NCBI GenBank assembly: GCA_011052015.1
Contig: DRJZ01000092.1
Coordinates: 1 to 43,601, forward strand
DNA: 43,601 nt
Direction of reading: 5' to 3'
Source of the DNA: Acidiferrobacteraceae bacterium
Lineage (GTDB): Bacteria > Pseudomonadota > Gammaproteobacteria > HyVt-429
Made by a program: the position numbers and the translations under genes. Below are positions 23,324 through 43,501 of this stretch, in pieces (position 1 is the first letter of the stretch; each line of letters starts with the position of its first letter). The notes under the pieces are model-generated. The model saw only the letters and a program-made list of their open reading frames with translations. It was not told the DNA's origin and searched no databases.

Positions 23324-25117
23324 CTATTGATCGCTGGCCACTTCAGTGGAATCAGCAGATACCTCGGGCGTAGAGATATTACTGTAATCAATAACACCGA
23401 TCACCCGCGGGATGATCGGCGAACTGCCAGGTGCGGAGAAATTGTAATTCAAAACACCCACCACCCGTGAAATCGCTGTTTTTAGTTCGGGAAGCTGTGG
23501 GATATTGATCACCAGCACCCAATCCTCATTACCCGGAACCGTCAGCGTAACGACATCACCGACGGTGATCATACTTTCATTGCTGACATCACCGGTCTTT
23601 GGGTCTATCCAACTAACATCTGCCGTTAAAGTCCAATCCGACAGATCAACCCTTATCTCATCGCCCCGCACTGCGGCAAGTGCGCCTTCCTGCTCTAGAT
23701 AGATCACATACTCGCGATCATTCTCTCCAAAACAGCGGCCAACATCCACCTTGTCATTACAGGTCGTATAGGTGCTGGCATCACGATCCTCATCACCCCA
23801 AAAATCACTGAAGACCTTATATTGTTCGGTGGACTTCAGATCATTCTCAAAATCATCGAGACGCAGGGCTCCATTTCGTCCACCGAGAATAAACCCGGCA
23901 CCGCCGGCGACATAGGTGTACCACATGGACTGGCGAATGCCGCCCACATCAAATAGGCCATCGGTGAAACCCACTCGCCAGCGATCGGTATAAAAAATTG
24001 GATTACTCGATCCACTAATCGCGGTCAGGATGGTATCAAAATCAGGGTTTTTATCGCCAAGAGAGTCGTAGGTGCATGAGGTACAGGCAAAAGGTGTAAA
24101 CCCTGCGCTCTGGCGCGAACTCAGTGGACGATCATTGGGATCCAGATCAGAAATGCGGTCGGCAAAAAATTTACTCCACTCGCTATCGCGGTACTCCAGA
24201 ATATTGATCCCTGAATCGAAGGACACCCTCTTATAGGGTGACAGCCGAGACACCGCGTATTGAAGCAATATGGTTTCTGTAGCAGACTCGCCTTCAAAAC
24301 CTGGTGCCTCGTCACCATTGCCATAGAACATGATGTTCACCGCCAGATCACGCTCTTCCAGCATCTTCATAAAAAGGTCGAGCCTGTCCCAATTGGCAAC
24401 ATCCAGAAAATCAAAACCAGGTGAACAAAAATTCGTCCCCTGACAGGCGTTCCACACTCGATTTTTTAATATGATCGCCACCCCATTGGCGCCCAATCTG
24501 TCTTTTACGTAATCAAGCAACACCCCCATGCGCGGATCATCCACCTTCAGGTAATCCTCCAAGGCTACATAGAACGGAACATGAATAAGAGGATCGGCCA
24601 GACCCGTTGTAGTTGAACCAGACTCACCGGCCTGTAATTTTTCCAGCTGGGCCTCATAACCAAGGACTACAAAGAGCGCACCTTCACCGTCTACGGTTTC
24701 GTCATTAGTGTCATCACTTTCCAGTATGGTTGCGTCTACCCACTTGTAGGTGTAGGTCCAAAGACCGGCCTCTTCAGGCACGAAGCGGGTTCGCCAGACT
24801 ATGCCCGATTGGCCACCCACCCCATCACCCACATGAAAGCCGGTGATGACCTTTTCTGTCTTGGAAGGTGAGATAAAAGTCACCCTAAGTGCCAGTTCAG
24901 CGGTATCAAATGGATTGGCCAGGGGCAAAGTGTAATCAAAGTCTCGATCCCACACCTCGCCCTGGAAAACGGGGATCACCCGCACTGCCGGGGTGGCAGC
25001 GGAATACATCAGCAGCAACAACGCGAGCACACATCCCGTCGCCGCTGATAAACGTTGCTTGTGTTGATCTAGCCAGGTCATAATGGATTTTGTACTGCGT
25101 ATACCTCCAGACAACAT
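23324..25117 (-). CDS. secreted DUF5060-type glycoside-hydrolase-like protein
   Basis: A 597-residue exported protein. A hydrophobic signal segment covers about residues 25-44. Residues 48-130 resemble the DUF5060 beta-sandwich (VFQGEVWDRDFDYTLPLANP, WRTRFVPEEAGLWTYTYKW). The middle resembles a TIM barrel of the DUF4038/putative glycosidase kind, with WDRLDLFMKMLEERDL and SGINILEYRDSEW, which may hold an acid residue. A later stretch (SWIDPKTGD to PGNEDWVLVI) resembles the C-terminal sandwich of the same proteins. The tail carries two similar copies, SRVVGVLNYNFSAP and PRVIGVIDYSNIST. The first ATG has GAGG seven bases upstream; a second ATG at 25081 is possible. Substrate unknown. Confidence 0.65.
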   Translation of the reverse strand: MLSGGIRSTKSIMTWLDQHKQRLSAATGCVLALLLLMYSAATPAVRVIPVFQGEVWDRDFDYTLPLANPFDTAELALRVTFISPSKTEKVITGFHVGDGVGGQSGIVWRTRFVPEEAGLWTYTYKWVDATILESDDTNDETVDGEGALFVVLGYEAQLEKLQAGESGSTTTGLADPLIHVPFYVALEDYLKVDDPRMGVLLDYVKDRLGANGVAIILKNRVWNACQGTNFCSPGFDFLDVANWDRLDLFMKMLEERDLAVNIMFYGNGDEAPGFEGESATETILLQYAVSRLSPYKRVSFDSGINILEYRDSEWSKFFADRISDLDPNDRPLSSRQSAGFTPFACTSCTYDSLGDKNPDFDTILTAISGSSNPIFYTDRWRVGFTDGLFDVGGIRQSMWYTYVAGGAGFILGGRNGALRLDDFENDLKSTEQYKVFSDFWGDEDRDASTYTTCNDKVDVGRCFGENDREYVIYLEQEGALAAVRGDEIRVDLSDWTLTADVSWIDPKTGDVSNESMITVGDVVTLTVPGNEDWVLVINIPQLPELKTAISRVVGVLNYNFSAPGSSPIIPRVIGVIDYSNISTPEVSADSTEVASDQ

Positions 25118-25425
25118 AATGGGGCCTCATCCTAAATAATAGCTTACTTTAGAATATAACCCTAAGCCTTTGTAAAGTATAGCAAGTTTTAGGCAATACC
25201 TGGAGGGTTTGTCTTTCGCTGAAGACCCCCCAACACCAATACCATGCCCATCAGGCTATTGACCAAATACAGGCTGCCCGCCAATTAACCATTGCAGGTC
25301 AAGGTTGATTGATCGGATGAATCCGACCCTACAATATAAAATCCACTAATCCGTTATTCGCAGGGGCACAGTAATTCGGCGAGGTCCGCCTGGGACACTA
25401 CCCTGGGCACAAGGAGGGCGCAGCC
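25118..25425. other. 308-base gap between greA and the DUF5060 gene
   Basis: No coding frame or RNA gene was recognised. It contains a hairpin-like GTCTT/AAGAC inverted repeat near 25211-25228, a TATACT hexamer on the minus strand near 25182 that could serve the DUF5060 gene although no good -35 is visible, and one REP-like unit listed separately. No clear terminator for greA was found. Confidence 0.4.
25311..25332 (-). repeat. REP-like unit: GTAG plus palindrome
   Basis: On the minus strand GTAG (25329-25332) is followed by GGTCGGAT-TC-ATCCGATC, an 8-bp stem with one G-T wobble. The design matches the units at 32158-32221 and 36664-36731: a GTAG head, then a short palindrome, in an intergenic region. 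Only a single copy is present here. Confidence 0.5.
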
Positions 25426-25902
25426 TTAGATATAGCGAATATTAAGTATCTCATAGTAGCGTACACCTCCTGGGGCGGTGACTTCTACCTCTGCACCATC
25501 TTGCTTGCCGATCAAGGCGCGGGCGATGGGTGAATTGATCGATACTTCACCTCTTTGTATGTCGGCCTCCAACTCGCCCACTATTTTATAGACCACCTTG
25601 GCATCACTGTCCTGATCAAGCAATTCCACGGTGGCGCCAAACACCACCTTTCCTTTCACGTTCAACTTTGTCGGGTCAATTACCTGAGCCTCAGACAGCA
25701 CAACATTCAGTTCAGCAATGCGGCCTTCCAGAAAACTCTGTTCCTCTTTAGCGGCGTGATACTCCGCATTCTCTGATAAATCCCCATGGGCCCTGGCCTC
25801 GGCAATGGCCTGAATAACCCGTGGCCGCTCAACACTTCTTAGACGATCGAGTTCTTCGCGTAAGCGCTCGGCGCCCACAGCGGTAATGGGAATACGAATC
25901 AT
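25426..25902 (-). CDS. greA: transcription elongation factor GreA
   Basis: Binds in the secondary channel of RNA polymerase and stimulates cleavage of backtracked transcripts. The 158-residue protein has an N-terminal coiled coil (about residues 8-75) with the tip motif [20 protein letters not shown] containing the catalytic acidic residues, and a C-terminal FKBP-like domain ending [18 protein letters not shown]. The ATG overlaps the carB stop (ATGA), so it is translated after carB. The carAB-greA order is common in gammaproteobacteria. Confidence 0.98.
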
Positions 25903-31456: not shown

Positions 31457-32149
31457 ATGGATGAGACATCCCTAACCTCACTGGTGAGATTACTGGCCGC
31501 AGTCGCGGCAGGTGGGTTCATCGGTCTGGAGCGCACCTATCATGGGCGTCCAGCTGGATTTCGAACCCATACCCTGGTGTGCACAGCCTCGAGCCTGCTC
31601 ATGCTGGTCACCGTCTATCAACTACAACTCATCGACATCTCAGTTGATGTGTTGCGGATCGATCCCACTCGCCTGGCTCAAGGCATTATGACCGGTATCG
31701 GTTTTCTGGGTGCCGGGGTCATCATGAAGGAAGGCTTGAGTGTGCGTGGACTGACGACCGCAGCATCCATCTGGATGACGGCGTCCATTGGCATTCTCAT
31801 TGGCATAGGATTCTACTTCCCGGCCCTGATCGCCACCCTGCTCACAGTGGGTACGCTCGCGCTTTTCAGGTACATCGAACACGTCGCACCCAGTCATCAT
31901 TATGCGGTACTGTCAGTGCGTTCTCTACGCAAGGAAAACCTGTCCCTCGACGACCTGTGTAAGCTGATCAAAGATCTAGGTATGACGACTGCCAATGCCA
32001 GCTACCGACTCAATCAGGAGGGCAAATTCTTTCAGTACCGCATGACCATACGTGGCCGAGATGAAACAAAATTCAGGCAATTGGCGGAGATGCTAATAAC
32101 CCTGGATAAGGTCTCGGAATTTGATCTCACCCCGGTGGGGGGGAAATAA
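31457..32149 (+). CDS. MgtC/SapB family membrane protein
   Basis: A 230-residue protein with four or five N-terminal helices and a soluble C-terminal domain. Family signatures are GGFIGLERTYHGRPAGFRTH at about residues 18-37, and GIMTGIGFLGAGVIMKEG with GLTTAASIWMTASIGIL near the middle. MgtC relatives affect Mg2+ homeostasis, membrane potential or acid tolerance in pathogens; the role in ordinary bacteria is unclear. The C-terminal domain (about 150-228) resembles an ACT-like fold. It stands alone, divergent from dapB. Confidence 0.88.
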   Translation: MDETSLTSLVRLLAAVAAGGFIGLERTYHGRPAGFRTHTLVCTASSLLMLVTVYQLQLIDISVDVLRIDPTRLAQGIMTGIGFLGAGVIMKEGLSVRGLTTAASIWMTASIGILIGIGFYFPALIATLLTVGTLALFRYIEHVAPSHHYAVLSVRSLRKENLSLDDLCKLIKDLGMTTANASYRLNQEGKFFQYRMTIRGRDETKFRQLAEMLITLDKVSEFDLTPVGGK

Positions 32150-32157
32150 AACTTAGT

Positions 32158-32221
32158 GTAGGTGCGAATTCATTCGCACAACGGTATTTTACGCGCATCG
32201 TACGAATAAATTCGCACCTAC
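32158..32221. repeat. inverted pair of REP-like units (BIME-like)
   Basis: The left unit on plus is GTAG followed by the perfect palindrome GTGCGAAT-TC-ATTCGCAC (32158-32179). The right unit on minus is GTAG followed by GTGCGAAT-TT-ATTCGTAC (32200-32221), with one mismatch in its stem. The two units face each other with 20 bases between them, so the whole can also form one long hairpin. It sits between the converging ends of the MgtC-family gene and the PQQ-repeat lipoprotein gene. Confidence 0.75.
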
Positions 32222-32284
32222 AGATTACGAGATTACGTGGCAAGCCACGGGAAATACACACCCTCAGTGATTTAGAGACCATAA

Positions 32285-34102
32285 TTATGGCCCCAGGGGC
32301 ACCGCCACCAAACGCTTTTCGATCGCCTGATAGATATTACCATTGGCCTCATCAATGACCAGATTGGGATAACGAGAAGGTAGAGCAACCAACCGATCGG
32401 TCTTACCGGTACGTAAATTGACTGCAGCCAGGGCCTGATCATGGCCCTTGGGTTGGGTGATAAAATATTGATAACCACCGCGCAGATTGGTATAGGGCGC
32501 ATTGTCCGCCACCGCACTGGCCTGATAAACGAAACGTCGGCCCGTGTCCCGTGACGTGTCTACCACCAGGGTCTTGGTATTGATCAGTTTTACCTTCACC
32601 CGCCCGCCCAAAGGCAAGGTCAAAGCCGGGATGGCAGGCAACAGACCGCCCACATTGGCAATGACAAACGAACCCAACTTCAGCACCGAACCCGAGGCCT
32701 GCAACAAACCGGAAGAAAACCGCCGCCAGATAGATGGACGCGCTTGAGGGTGTTGGGTGTACCAGAGGCGCTTTCCAGTAACCTCGTGATAGGCCGCTAC
32801 GGCATCTTCGCTAATGAGCAATATTCGGCGGTCCTCATTGAGTGCCACAAAAATCGGACGTTTTTGTAGTTCATGTTCAATCTCGACGGACACTGCACCG
32901 GTCTTGCGGTTAATAGCCAGCAGACGTTCACCATCGGCAAACCACACGAGTTCGCCAAACACCAATAGATTGGTGATCGAACCCATGGCGTCTTTATACT
33001 TCCAGACGACTTTACCCGTTTGACGATCCAGTGCCACGGCACCAAAGTCACCCTTCCATACCCACTTTTCCTTTCCAATATCAAAGAATCGACCTCCTAA
33101 TTGGCCATAGACAACATCTTTGTCCACCAGCACCTCAGGCACAAAATCAAATCGCTTAGATCGCCATAGCTGTTTACCCGTACTGATATTAAATACACGA
33201 ATCCGATTATTACCACTGGTGTAGATGAGATTCCCTTGCAACACCGGGTTGGCATAGGACAAAGCCAGATCATCTTCGATGACATCAAACTTCTGCTGCC
33301 AAAGCAGTTGGCCATTGCGAGCATCAAAACAACGAACACCACTATAAGTCACGCAGAGCTTGCCGTCCGCTACCAAGGGTGGGTGATAGAGCCCCAGCGT
33401 AAAGGGTCGATTAAATACCCACTCGGCATCATCGTCCAGGATAGGCCGATAGGAGGGGCGTAGCGCCACCTTTTGACCGAAGGCCTGCTGCCAAAGCAAA
33501 CGTCCAGTGGACAGCTCAAGGGCATGGAGTTGGGGCTCCCGCTTCAGCCCCGAAAACAGACCTTTTCCCGGCAGGATGCTGCTCAACACACCACGGTCAT
33601 CACCGTGGGCCTGGGGCACGGTCACCACAAACAAAACACCATTAACTGGATCGACTGTCGCCTGAAGTACACGCCCTTTGAGTACCGGCGATTCCCAAAC
33701 CAACTCACCACTATGCCGATCAACGGCCAACATGTGTGTTCCGGCGTCGTCATAGTGACCTCCCGAGGCATCACTGATGAGGATATAGGGGGCATCGCCA
33801 ATGGTCATCAGATCACCGGCGCTGGCGCTAATATTGCGCAAACGCCAACGGCGTTGGCCATTGGCCAAATTAATACCATAAAGGTGACGCGATGTAGCCG
33901 TCACCAACAACCCATCATCAATCAGAGTCTGAAATCCGATGGGATGCTCAAACTTTATCTCCCAGGCCGGTGGCCGTTCCTGCACCTCTGGCGCGGTGGC
34001 ACAACCCGCGCTGAGCCACACCCAACATACAACAAACACTGCCGCCCACATGGGTCGGGCTATATGGGGGAAATCGATTCCATTCTTGTTGCATTTATTC
34101 AT
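32285..34102 (-). CDS. outer-membrane-type lipoprotein with PQQ-like beta-propeller repeats
   Basis: A 605-residue exported protein. The signal peptide ends in LSAGC, with Cys34 as predicted lipidation site. Repeats of the PQQ/quinoprotein type are seen, for example LYGINLANGQRRWRL, LAVDRHSGELVWE, HALELSTGRLLWQQ, FDARNGQLLWQQKF, VFNISTGKQLWRS and VALDRQTGKVVWKY, consistent with a seven- or eight-bladed propeller. The architecture resembles BamB, but the length and the C-terminal 180 residues differ, so a role in outer-membrane assembly is only one option. No catalytic quinoprotein features were seen. It converges on the MgtC-family gene across a REP-like pair. Confidence 0.75.
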   Translation of the reverse strand: MNKCNKNGIDFPHIARPMWAAVFVVCWVWLSAGCATAPEVQERPPAWEIKFEHPIGFQTLIDDGLLVTATSRHLYGINLANGQRRWRLRNISASAGDLMTIGDAPYILISDASGGHYDDAGTHMLAVDRHSGELVWESPVLKGRVLQATVDPVNGVLFVVTVPQAHGDDRGVLSSILPGKGLFSGLKREPQLHALELSTGRLLWQQAFGQKVALRPSYRPILDDDAEWVFNRPFTLGLYHPPLVADGKLCVTYSGVRCFDARNGQLLWQQKFDVIEDDLALSYANPVLQGNLIYTSGNNRIRVFNISTGKQLWRSKRFDFVPEVLVDKDVVYGQLGGRFFDIGKEKWVWKGDFGAVALDRQTGKVVWKYKDAMGSITNLLVFGELVWFADGERLLAINRKTGAVSVEIEHELQKRPIFVALNEDRRILLISEDAVAAYHEVTGKRLWYTQHPQARPSIWRRFSSGLLQASGSVLKLGSFVIANVGGLLPAIPALTLPLGGRVKVKLINTKTLVVDTSRDTGRRFVYQASAVADNAPYTNLRGGYQYFITQPKGHDQALAAVNLRTGKTDRLVALPSRYPNLVIDEANGNIYQAIEKRLVAVPLGP

Positions 34103-35240: not shown

Positions 35241-36599
35241 TTACCCGATTACTTTCACAAACACCTTGGAATTGCGCTGGTAGTTAACCATAGCCTGACG
35301 CTCTACAGGCAGGGCGTCCAATGCTTGCTGATGATAACCGTGCTGGCGAAACCAGTCTTGGGCGCGAGTGGTAAGGACAAACAACTTTTGAATACCTTGC
35401 TGCTGGGCAGCGCGCTCGGCGTGATTGAGCAGGGCCTCGCCCTTACCCCGTTTCTGATAGTCGGGATGCACTGCCAACCCGGCCAATTCGGCCAGCCCAT
35501 GGTCGGTGAAGGGATATAAGCCGAAACAGGCAATCACCGCACCGTCACGTTCCAACACAGTGAAATGGTCGATCTCCATTTCCAGACGTTCCCGAGAACG
35601 CCGCACCAGGATGCCTTGGGATTCCAAAGGCTCGATAAGTTCCAATATGCCGCCCACATCATCAATGTGGGCCAGACGGATGCCCTCATAGACATCGCTG
35701 CTCACCAAGGTGCCCACCCCGTCGCGGGTGAACAGTTCTTGTAACAGAGCCCCATCCACGTGACGATTGATCATGTGCGCCCGGCGTACCCCGTGTTGGC
35801 ACACCTTCACTGCGCTGGCCAGGGGCTTGGCAATGGCATCAGCGGACAATTCCTTCAACCGTGCCTGGGCCTCTACCAAGGTGAGTTGGCGTATGAGTCC
35901 TCCGGTGGTATCGGCCACCCCGTCAACGTCTAATATGTAGATCAGCTTATCGGCGCCCAGGGCAATAGCGGTCGCCGTGGCTACATCTTCGGCACTGAGA
36001 TTGAACACCTCACCGGTGGGGGAATAACCCAGAGGTGACAGCAGCACCAGGGCGCCATCTTCCAACTGGCGTTGAATATTCGCGTGGTCGATGCGCCGTA
36101 CTTCACCGGTATGTTGGTAGTCCACCCCTTCACGCACACCCAGGGGGCGGGCGACCACAAAGTTTCCCGACGCCACCCGTATGTGTGCACCGGCAGTGGG
36201 AGAATTAGCCATGCCCATGGACAACAGGGCCTCGATCTCGACCCGCACGCTACCGGCGGCATCCTTAACGCAGACCAGGGCTGCATCATCGGTGATGCGC
36301 AGATCATTAACATAGCGCATGGCGGCGCCACGCTCATTGAGCCGCTGCTCGATTTGGGGGCGGGCGCCATGGACCAGCACCAAACGCACACCGAGGCTGT
36401 TGAGTAATACGACGTCATGCACCAGGGCGGGAAACTGGGCATCGCAGATGACCTCACCACCAAAGGCGATGACAAAGGTGCGATTACGGAACGCATTGAT
36501 ATAGGGCGCTGCATTTCGAAACCATTGAATGAAGGCGGCGTCCCCTGCCTGGGGAACACTGGCGCCGTCGTTAGGATTATCCACTGATTTAAGATTCAT
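35241..36599 (-). CDS. argA: amino-acid N-acetyltransferase (N-acetylglutamate synthase)
   Basis: The first committed step of arginine synthesis: acetyl-CoA plus glutamate to N-acetylglutamate. The 452-residue protein has the fused layout of classical ArgA: an amino-acid-kinase-like domain (about residues 25-300; VIAFGGEVICDAQFPALVHD, LVHGARPQIEQRLNERG, LSPLGYSPTGEVFNLSAEDV) followed by a GNAT acetyltransferase domain (about 305-450; ELAGLAVHPDYQKRGKGEAL). The first domain binds arginine for feedback inhibition in known enzymes. It is divergent from the gene at 36972, with a REP-like pair in the gap. Confidence 0.96.
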   Translation of the reverse strand: MNLKSVDNPNDGASVPQAGDAAFIQWFRNAAPYINAFRNRTFVIAFGGEVICDAQFPALVHDVVLLNSLGVRLVLVHGARPQIEQRLNERGAAMRYVNDLRITDDAALVCVKDAAGSVRVEIEALLSMGMANSPTAGAHIRVASGNFVVARPLGVREGVDYQHTGEVRRIDHANIQRQLEDGALVLLSPLGYSPTGEVFNLSAEDVATATAIALGADKLIYILDVDGVADTTGGLIRQLTLVEAQARLKELSADAIAKPLASAVKVCQHGVRRAHMINRHVDGALLQELFTRDGVGTLVSSDVYEGIRLAHIDDVGGILELIEPLESQGILVRRSRERLEMEIDHFTVLERDGAVIACFGLYPFTDHGLAELAGLAVHPDYQKRGKGEALLNHAERAAQQQGIQKLFVLTTRAQDWFRQHGYHQQALDALPVERQAMVNYQRNSKVFVKVIG

Positions 36600-36971
36600 A
36601 GCTCTACGATTCTACCGGAAAATGGAGCCCCAACGCATTACATTAAAGGCAAAAATATTGTAAGCAGGGTGGGCATTCATACCCACGTAACATAATCTGG
36701 AGCAAGTGGCGGGCACAAGTGTCCACCCTACAACTGGGTTTAACTCAAAATTTATCCACACTAATCTGCGTAGACCCCATCATTAAAAGTGCCCTGCTGT
36801 TAATTTCTTCCACCCCACAACCCGAGCGGCGAGTATATTCTTGAAGTAGTGTAAATAGCCTAAGCATAGCGTTTTCACCCTCCTCGGTTTAGACTATTAA
36901 CCACCAACCAATTTATCCGTCTAAAATGGAATCTAGGAGACTCCAGCGAGTCCTGCACAGATTAGCAAACC
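36600..36971. other. 372-base divergent gap between argA and the 36972 gene
   Basis: No coding region was recognised. It holds the REP-like pair at 36664-36731 and, on the plus strand, a hairpin-like GGAGACTC/GAGTCC sequence at about 36933-36950 just before the 36972 gene. Promoters for both directions are presumably here, but none matches the consensus well enough to call. Confidence 0.4.
36664..36731. repeat. inverted pair of REP-like units, divergent copy
   Basis: The right unit on minus (36708-36731) is GTAG followed by GGTGGACAC-TT-GTGCCCGCC, stem seven of nine. The left unit on plus begins GCAG at 36664 followed by GTGGG-CATTCATA-CCCAC. The two units are inverted relative to each other, as at 32158-32221, but their sequences have diverged. 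Confidence 0.6.
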
Positions 36972-43442: not shown

Positions 43443-43501
43443 CTTTCAAAGTTGGCGGGGCTTTTGCGGTTTTTTTGCAAAAGCCCCGACAGGTTTGAAA
43501 G
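43443..43501. repeat. nested two-level hairpin with T-rich loop
   Basis: An outer pair CTTTCAAA (43443-43450) and TTTGAAAG (43494-43501) encloses an inner 12-bp perfect stem CGGGGCTTTTGC / GCAAAAGCCCCG (43457-43468 and 43478-43489) whose loop is GGTTTTTTT. A T-run within the loop rather than after the stem is unusual for an intrinsic terminator. Confidence 0.6.

Follow-up and report, generated by a model that had tools for sequence, protein, structure and literature searches.

REP elements of two families, a composite REPIN and REP-flanked RAYT genes with altered coding sequences in a draft genome of the Acidiferrobacteraceae

The stretch of DNA analysed here, called the window, is a contig of 43,601 nucleotides (C92; DRJZ01000092.1) from the draft genome of an Acidiferrobacteraceae bacterium (GCA_011052015.1), which comprises 2,635,735 bases in 183 contigs and is 94.4% complete. 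Between a gene of the MgtC family and a convergent gene for a PQQ/BamB-like beta-propeller protein, a search of the window for inverted repeats found two arms of 23 nt each, 91% complementary and 20 nt apart (Table 1). A first-pass annotation, made from the sequence alone, had described GTAG-headed palindromes facing each other at 32158–32221; the pair is real and is one base longer at each end (32157–32222). A REP unit of this pair consists of TGTAG, a stem of 8 bp and a loop of 2 nt, and the stem-loop of the left unit reads GTGCGAAT-TC-ATTCGCAC. Folding energies for single-stranded DNA were −7.0 kcal/mol in the left unit (z −5.7) and −18.6 in the entire pair (z −6.5), values matched by none of 200 shuffled sequences in either case. 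The two REP units, in inverted orientation, form one unit, as is expected for a REPIN; according to Bertels and Rainey, REPINs are reportedly inverted REP pairs which act as one dispersed unit. A further inverted repeat, with 25-nt arms, 88% complementary and 9 nt apart, is located near the end of the window, at 43443–43501.

Two other sites in the window contain REP units. All three sites were claimed to be intergenic, and they were indeed found between long open reading frames, with the borders 25117 and 25426, 32149 and 32285, and 36599 and 36972, respectively. The unit at 25311 is a variant of the family present at 32157–32222, with the second stem subtype (see below), and folds less well as single-stranded DNA (z −2.5; 4 of 200 shuffles equal). 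The region 36664–36731 is a degraded copy of a second REP family. The TGTAGG heads which it was said to share are present in its right unit; its left unit has GCAGG instead. The spacer of this HH pair is shortened to 20 nt, compared with 43–48 nt in the other 10 HH pairs of family 2, and as single-stranded DNA the region folds no better than shuffled sequences (z −0.06; 91 of 200 equal).

Table 1. Positions of REP units, associated features and neighbouring genes in the window and around the two REP-flanked RAYT genes.
Position	Strand	Feature	Remarks
Window 23324–25117	−	DUF5060 gene	
Window 25311–25333	−	Single family-1 REP unit, GTC-stem subtype	TGTAGGGTCGGATTCATCCGATC; between greA and DUF5060 gene
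Window 25426–25902	−	greA	
Window 31457–32149	+	MgtC family gene	Stop codon 7 nt 5' of the REPIN
Window 32150–32284		135-nt block	Missing between the corresponding genes of G001 (same genus)
Window 32157–32179	+	Family-1 REP unit, left arm of inverted pair	GTGCGAAT stem subtype
Window 32180–32199		Linker of 20 nt, joining both REP units	Partly common to composites on C107, C113 and C118
Window 32200–32222	−	Family-1 REP unit, right arm of inverted pair	REPIN/HH dimer, GTAG heads outside
Window 32223–32277		Repeated tail of composite element	Own small hairpin, CGTGGC-AA-GCCACG
Window 32285–34102	−	PQQ/BamB-like beta-propeller protein gene, convergent	G001 ortholog 85% identical
Window 36664–36687	+	Degraded family-2 REP unit	Head GCAG; 3 mismatches to family pattern
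Window 36708–36731	−	Family-2 REP unit	1 mismatch; HH partner of 36664–36687
C138 12105–12127	−	Family-1 REP unit	Upstream of RAYT
C138 12184–12206	+	Family-1 REP unit	Upstream of RAYT
C138 12237–12725	+	Family-1 RAYT	NCBIfam REP_Tyr_transpos NF047646, 133.8 bits
C138 12696–12718	−	Family-1 REP unit	3' end of RAYT
C28 1129–1152	+	Family-2 REP unit	Around C28 RAYT
C28 1736–1759	−	Family-2 REP unit	Around C28 RAYT

REP units were counted genome-wide by pattern and covariance-model searches. With the family-1 pattern TGTAGGNNCGNATNNATNCGNNC and at most one mismatch, 41 matches were obtained, and none with the reversed pattern as control. GTAG was present in 28 of 28 matches without mismatch, where the pattern required it, and was kept in 11 of the 13 matches with one mismatch. 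The family-2 pattern GTAGGGTGGGCACTTGTGCCCACC, with up to 3 mismatches, gave 38 matches and no match for its control; in three of these a palindrome was read a second time from the opposite strand, and without them 35 units were left. GTAG-plus-palindrome units are dispersed and multicopy, and not single-copy, and the existence of at least two REP subfamilies, which had been predicted from the window, was borne out by the second family.

The covariance model of family 1 was built from 39 of the 41 rows, of which 23 are distinct; the two omitted rows are exact duplicates of included ones. It gave 54 matches at E ≤ 10, with some palindromes read twice. In the family-1 stem 93.5% of the cells are paired, a value reached by none of 500 shuffles, and 22 double-sided changes were counted, with a shuffled mean of 10.6 and again 0 of 500 shuffles reaching that number; structures slid along the same alignment were paired to 13–41%. 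Since the search pattern fixed most columns, the free columns provide the fair test of pairing. The three pairs which the pattern left unconstrained (columns 7-22, 8-21 and 11-18) are exactly those with double-sided changes, namely 9, 11 and 2 among the 23 distinct rows. In family 1, to which this test was applied, the hairpin has been kept by compensating changes. Two stem subtypes were found, GTGCGAAT and GGTCGAAT/GGCCGRAT, and neighbours arranged tail-to-tail mostly join one unit of each, as judged by eye. The 48 family-1 units were arranged as 7 HH, 8 TT and 3 HT neighbours and 14 single units, the 35 family-2 units as 11 HH, 1 HT and 11 single. Outside ORFs of at least 90 aa were 25 of 28 family-1 units, compared with 225 of 1400 positions drawn at random from these loci; for family 2, 13 of 14 units were outside ORFs, and of random positions 510 of 700 were inside (2 loci skipped).

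Ten matches to PF01797 were found in the genome, and two of the genes, on contigs C138 and C28, are Y1/HUH family genes flanked by REP units of this genome, the former by family 1 and the latter by family 2. Thus, the RAYT gene which had been expected elsewhere in the genome exists, once for each family. The C28 RAYT is of the E. coli type and scored 101.4 bits with NF047646, which has a cut-off of 80 bits; TnpA-REP (4er8) was its only PDB match, obtained with two overlapping ORFs (E 3.7e-21 and 9.9e-19). For the C138 protein, the structural model had a mean pLDDT of 88.5, and its best PDB match was also 4er8, a REP-bound RAYT (E 2e-9). The last codons of the C138 RAYT gene, and the end of the PP2C phosphatase gene upstream of it, run into REP sequence (L035:1426-1914, L022:756-1538). 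Other genes with Y1-transposase similarity were noted. On contig C31 (L033:7-975, minus strand) a Y1-transposase protein is fused to a DnaA-like C-terminal domain (residues 226–319; DnaA model TIGR00362, E 1.8e-10); it scored 60 bits with NF047646, below the cut-off, and REP flanks were not found there in the searches made. On contig C98 (L038) a Y1-transposase gene contains an in-frame stop.

In other bacteria, the family-1 type of REP co-occurs with RAYTs from one section of their tree. Matches to the family-1 model (E ≤ 0.01) within about 700 nt of a RAYT were present at 16 of 80 named loci, from Methylococcaceae, Gallionellaceae, Chromatiaceae, Ectothiorhodospiraceae, Pseudomonadaceae and a MAG labelled Desulfotomaculaceae; a seventeenth locus (L096), with the REP about 900 nt from the RAYT, is excluded from this number. 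A tree was built from 78 rows, namely the C138 protein and 77 of the 80 named loci; the REP label requires 7 changes on it, compared with a shuffled mean of 15.5, and none of 500 shuffles was as low. Among 56 genomes of the class, the family-1 model had matches (E ≤ 0.02) in four, i.e., in the present genome (38), G001 (4), G012 (13) and G041 (25). RAYTs at least 40% identical to the C138 protein occur in eight of the 56 (the present genome, G012, G015, G017, G038, G039, G041 and G046), and family-1 REPs are found in three of these eight versus one of the 48 others, which is G001. Family 2, in a 23-nt form with at most 2 mismatches, was confined to the present genome (33) and G001 (2) among the 56. 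Neither RAYT was found in G001, yet 4 family-1 and 2 family-2 units are present there. A cluster on contig C2 of G001 is the ortholog of the cluster on C32 of the present genome; therefore part of the REP population is older than the split from G001.

The REPIN of the window is contained in a block of 135 nt, of which 66 nt are the REPIN and the remainder is mostly the tail. This tail of about 55 nt had 8 matches in its own genome including itself (seven with E ≤ 1e-8, one with E 0.006) and none in 55 other genomes. The arrangement REP-linker-REP-tail is present in five copies, in the window and on C107, C113, C118 and C126; C46 has a partial composite without the second REP, C154 the tail alone, and the copy on C37 is weak. 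The copies on C113, C118 and C126 have in common an additional left arm, about 40 nt long and with a hairpin, and part of it is present on C46. The window copy belongs to this longer composite form, known only from this genome among those searched; the tail may have travelled with the REPIN through the RAYT or may have been duplicated in another way. At the corresponding junction of G001 the flanking genes, which are 81–89% identical at the DNA level, are 1 nt apart between their stop codons, and both stops are in place. In the alignment with G001, the other two REP-bearing regions of the window also differ in length: 7.8 kb in G001 corresponds to 144 nt at 25283–25427, and 1.6 kb to 320 nt at 36540–36861. 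The idea that REP-bearing intergenic regions are hot spots of rearrangement was not retained, as other gaps in the alignment differ too. Similarly, no claim is made that the C28 RAYT has been reduced to a REPIN at the corresponding site of G001: a family-2 pair without RAYT is located near ssb in that genome, but the gene order around it differs. The ssb neighbourhood of G001 (an ORF end and family-2 REPs; L039:1-266, L181:1285-1551) corresponds to the start of a contig here, about 0.9 kb from the C28 RAYT, and the region is thus rearranged.

Very probably, the pair at 32157–32222 is a REPIN of a known kind which was spread by its cognate RAYT on C138, and the pair at 36664–36731 is a decayed REPIN of a separate family with its RAYT on C28. 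This explanation is carried by the repeat families, the covariation of the stem, the adjacency of RAYT and REP, their co-occurrence on the RAYT tree and the empty junction in G001. The element at 32157–32222, with its two inverted REP hairpins of the GTAG type, would be non-autonomous and would have been dispersed as single-stranded DNA. The enzyme would be the product of the C138 gene, which has copies of this REP on both sides and thus forms a REPtron; as a TnpA-REP it should be a single-strand transposase of the HUH/Y1 kind, presumably acting by a single-strand cut-and-paste or copy mechanism. For the decayed REPIN at 36664–36731, the cognate enzyme would be the C28 RAYT. According to two accounts (PMC8266576, PMC6006769), single-stranded DNA is recognised by TnpA-REP through its GTAG foot and its hairpin; the enzyme then cuts at a nearby dinucleotide by means of a tyrosine, and rejoins the DNA. 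The REP anatomy found here fits such a mechanism. The cleavage dinucleotide CT was not enriched 5' of family-1 units (within 10 nt in 5 of 30, compared with 9 of 30 for a control stretch), and therefore the dinucleotide-cleavage step receives no support. Also counting against the explanation are G001, with REP units of both families and neither RAYT, and the changed HUH motif of the C138 enzyme; no target-site duplication or other mark of excision was seen.

Hairpins at gene ends could also be ordinary transcription terminators or stabilisers of mRNA ends which arose separately. The window pair folds well, it begins 7 nt past a stop codon, and the genes on its two sides converge; of the 25 family-1 units classed as intergenic, 9 are between convergent and 13 between tandem genes. 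However, a nearly identical sequence of 23 nt, including the unpaired GTAG head, recurs at about 41 dispersed places and in the RAYT flanks; identical heads and loops are not expected from separate origins, and no T-run follows the window hairpins. The shared 23-nt sequence argues against a separate origin, simple terminators are rejected as the source of the hairpins, and this explanation as a whole is regarded as very improbable; a terminator-like role may have been acquired later. Concerning the difference between the two species at 32150–32284, the block of about 135 nt was probably gained here once the two species had separated, as the two genes are 1 nt apart in G001. That it was instead deleted from G001 is rather improbable: a single pairwise comparison cannot give a direction, but the block is a repeat dispersed in this genome (8 matches), without any match in G001 and 54 others, and the junction in G001 is a clean convergent one.

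The present state of the two RAYTs is a different question. In the C138 protein the HUH motif reads H-L-Y (MPDHLYWL), compared with H-U-H in 7 of the 7 relatives first aligned. In the broken C28 gene, the HUH motif and the region of the catalytic tyrosine are in different frames, which overlap. Neither gene therefore contains an intact HUH motif and the catalytic tyrosine in a single frame, which lowers the claim of activity and not that of descent from RAYTs. The activity of the C138 RAYT at present is doubtful because of its changed motif. H-U-H is retained in 78 of the 80 named RAYT loci; the exceptions are L105 from Lamprocystis purpurea (H-L-Y) and L114 from a Pseudomonas MAG (R-L-H). When 369 genomes from the class were searched, the DNA pattern for MPDH-U-Y-W was found at one site, which is that of C138, and that for MPDH-U-H-W at 46 sites in 38 genomes, both patterns capturing only a part of the RAYTs. 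The proteins of C138 and L105 fall in different halves of the RAYT tree (few columns, weak forks), and thus H-L-Y likely arose independently in the two. The flanks of L105 (Lamprocystis purpurea DSM 4197) contained no match to the family-1 REP model; the RAYT of L114 (Pseudomonas sp. UBA10829 MAG) is surrounded by tandem REP units with a period of about 155 nt.

From these sequences, both RAYTs look impaired, and the balance tips slightly towards their being inactive now, with the repeats left as residents. Both genes could be intact in the living organism if the draft, with its many contigs, contained assembly errors, and one or two wrong bases would suffice for each lesion; errors of this kind are considered rather unlikely, since the lesions are separate and affect both of the REP-flanked RAYTs. 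No further copy of either RAYT was found elsewhere in the draft. An active C138 enzyme with an H-U-Y motif, in which Tyr66 replaces the second metal-binding histidine, appears improbable. Its reading frame is unbroken over 163 codons, Tyr124, at the position of the catalytic tyrosine (aligned with DYI of 4er8), is kept and is invariant in 78 sequences, and the H-L-Y RAYT of Lamprocystis purpurea stands elsewhere on the tree; against this are the general retention of H-U-H and the single site of MPDH-U-Y-W, and one transition (CAY to TAY) is enough to turn His into Tyr, which makes two decays easy to reach. With similar reserve, it could be speculated that the REP population outlived both transposases, that the C138 RAYT, its second metal-binding His having changed to Tyr as independently in Lamprocystis purpurea, was kept as a REP-binding protein which does not cut or as a variant HUY nuclease, and that the genome-specific composite of REPIN and tail spread meanwhile to several sites.

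Di Nocera et al. (2013, PMC3733652) described GTAG REPs with TY loops, HH and TT dimers, positions at gene ends and association with RAYTs. The elements found here resemble them in the unpaired GTAG at one end, the stem of 6–9 bp, the TY loop of 2 nt, the covarying stems which tolerate GU, the HH and TT dimers, the location at gene ends and the REP-flanked RAYT. This likeness is one of anatomy; 24 families are distinguished in that account. GT[AG]G is present at the foot of the hairpins, the left family-2 unit of the window having GCAG. As in REPINs, to judge from the pertinent text of PMC8049555, the inverted REP pair is a dispersed unit, represented by the window pair together with a further 17 HH pairs from the two families; unlike those described there, the elements have a low copy number (48 family-1 and 35 family-2 units), and a subset carries an extra repeated tail. 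Compared with Group 3 REPtrons, as far as outlined in sections of Corneloup et al. (2021, PMC8266576), family-1 REPs have the same short perfect palindrome with a TY loop of 2 nt, and the C138 RAYT has the WQ..(H/Y)DH..R region and ends shortly past the NPLRAGLV motif; by resemblance, it may be labelled group 3. It differs in reading HLY, as HuH was reported there to be conserved in both groups. The C28 RAYT resembles the E. coli TnpA-REP (PDB 4er8), of group 2, in both overlapping ORFs; it differs in the distribution of the gene over two frames and in its REP, a near-perfect palindrome of 9 bp without central bulge.

The REPINs of this genome are of a known kind with new members; the apparent impairment of the RAYTs, the composite element and the probable gain of the block in this genome were not foreseen. 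A guess made from sequence only could be checked: from the REPs of the window, copies dispersed through the genome, another family and the cognate RAYT genes were correctly predicted. In E. coli, REPINs persist after loss of the RAYT, according to a passage of PMC8049555, in which it is also stated that the lifetime of REPs after copying ends is not fully addressed by the authors' own model. If the impaired active sites are real, this strain and its sister species, which has REPs and no RAYTs, would provide a natural test of the persistence of REPs after copying has stopped.
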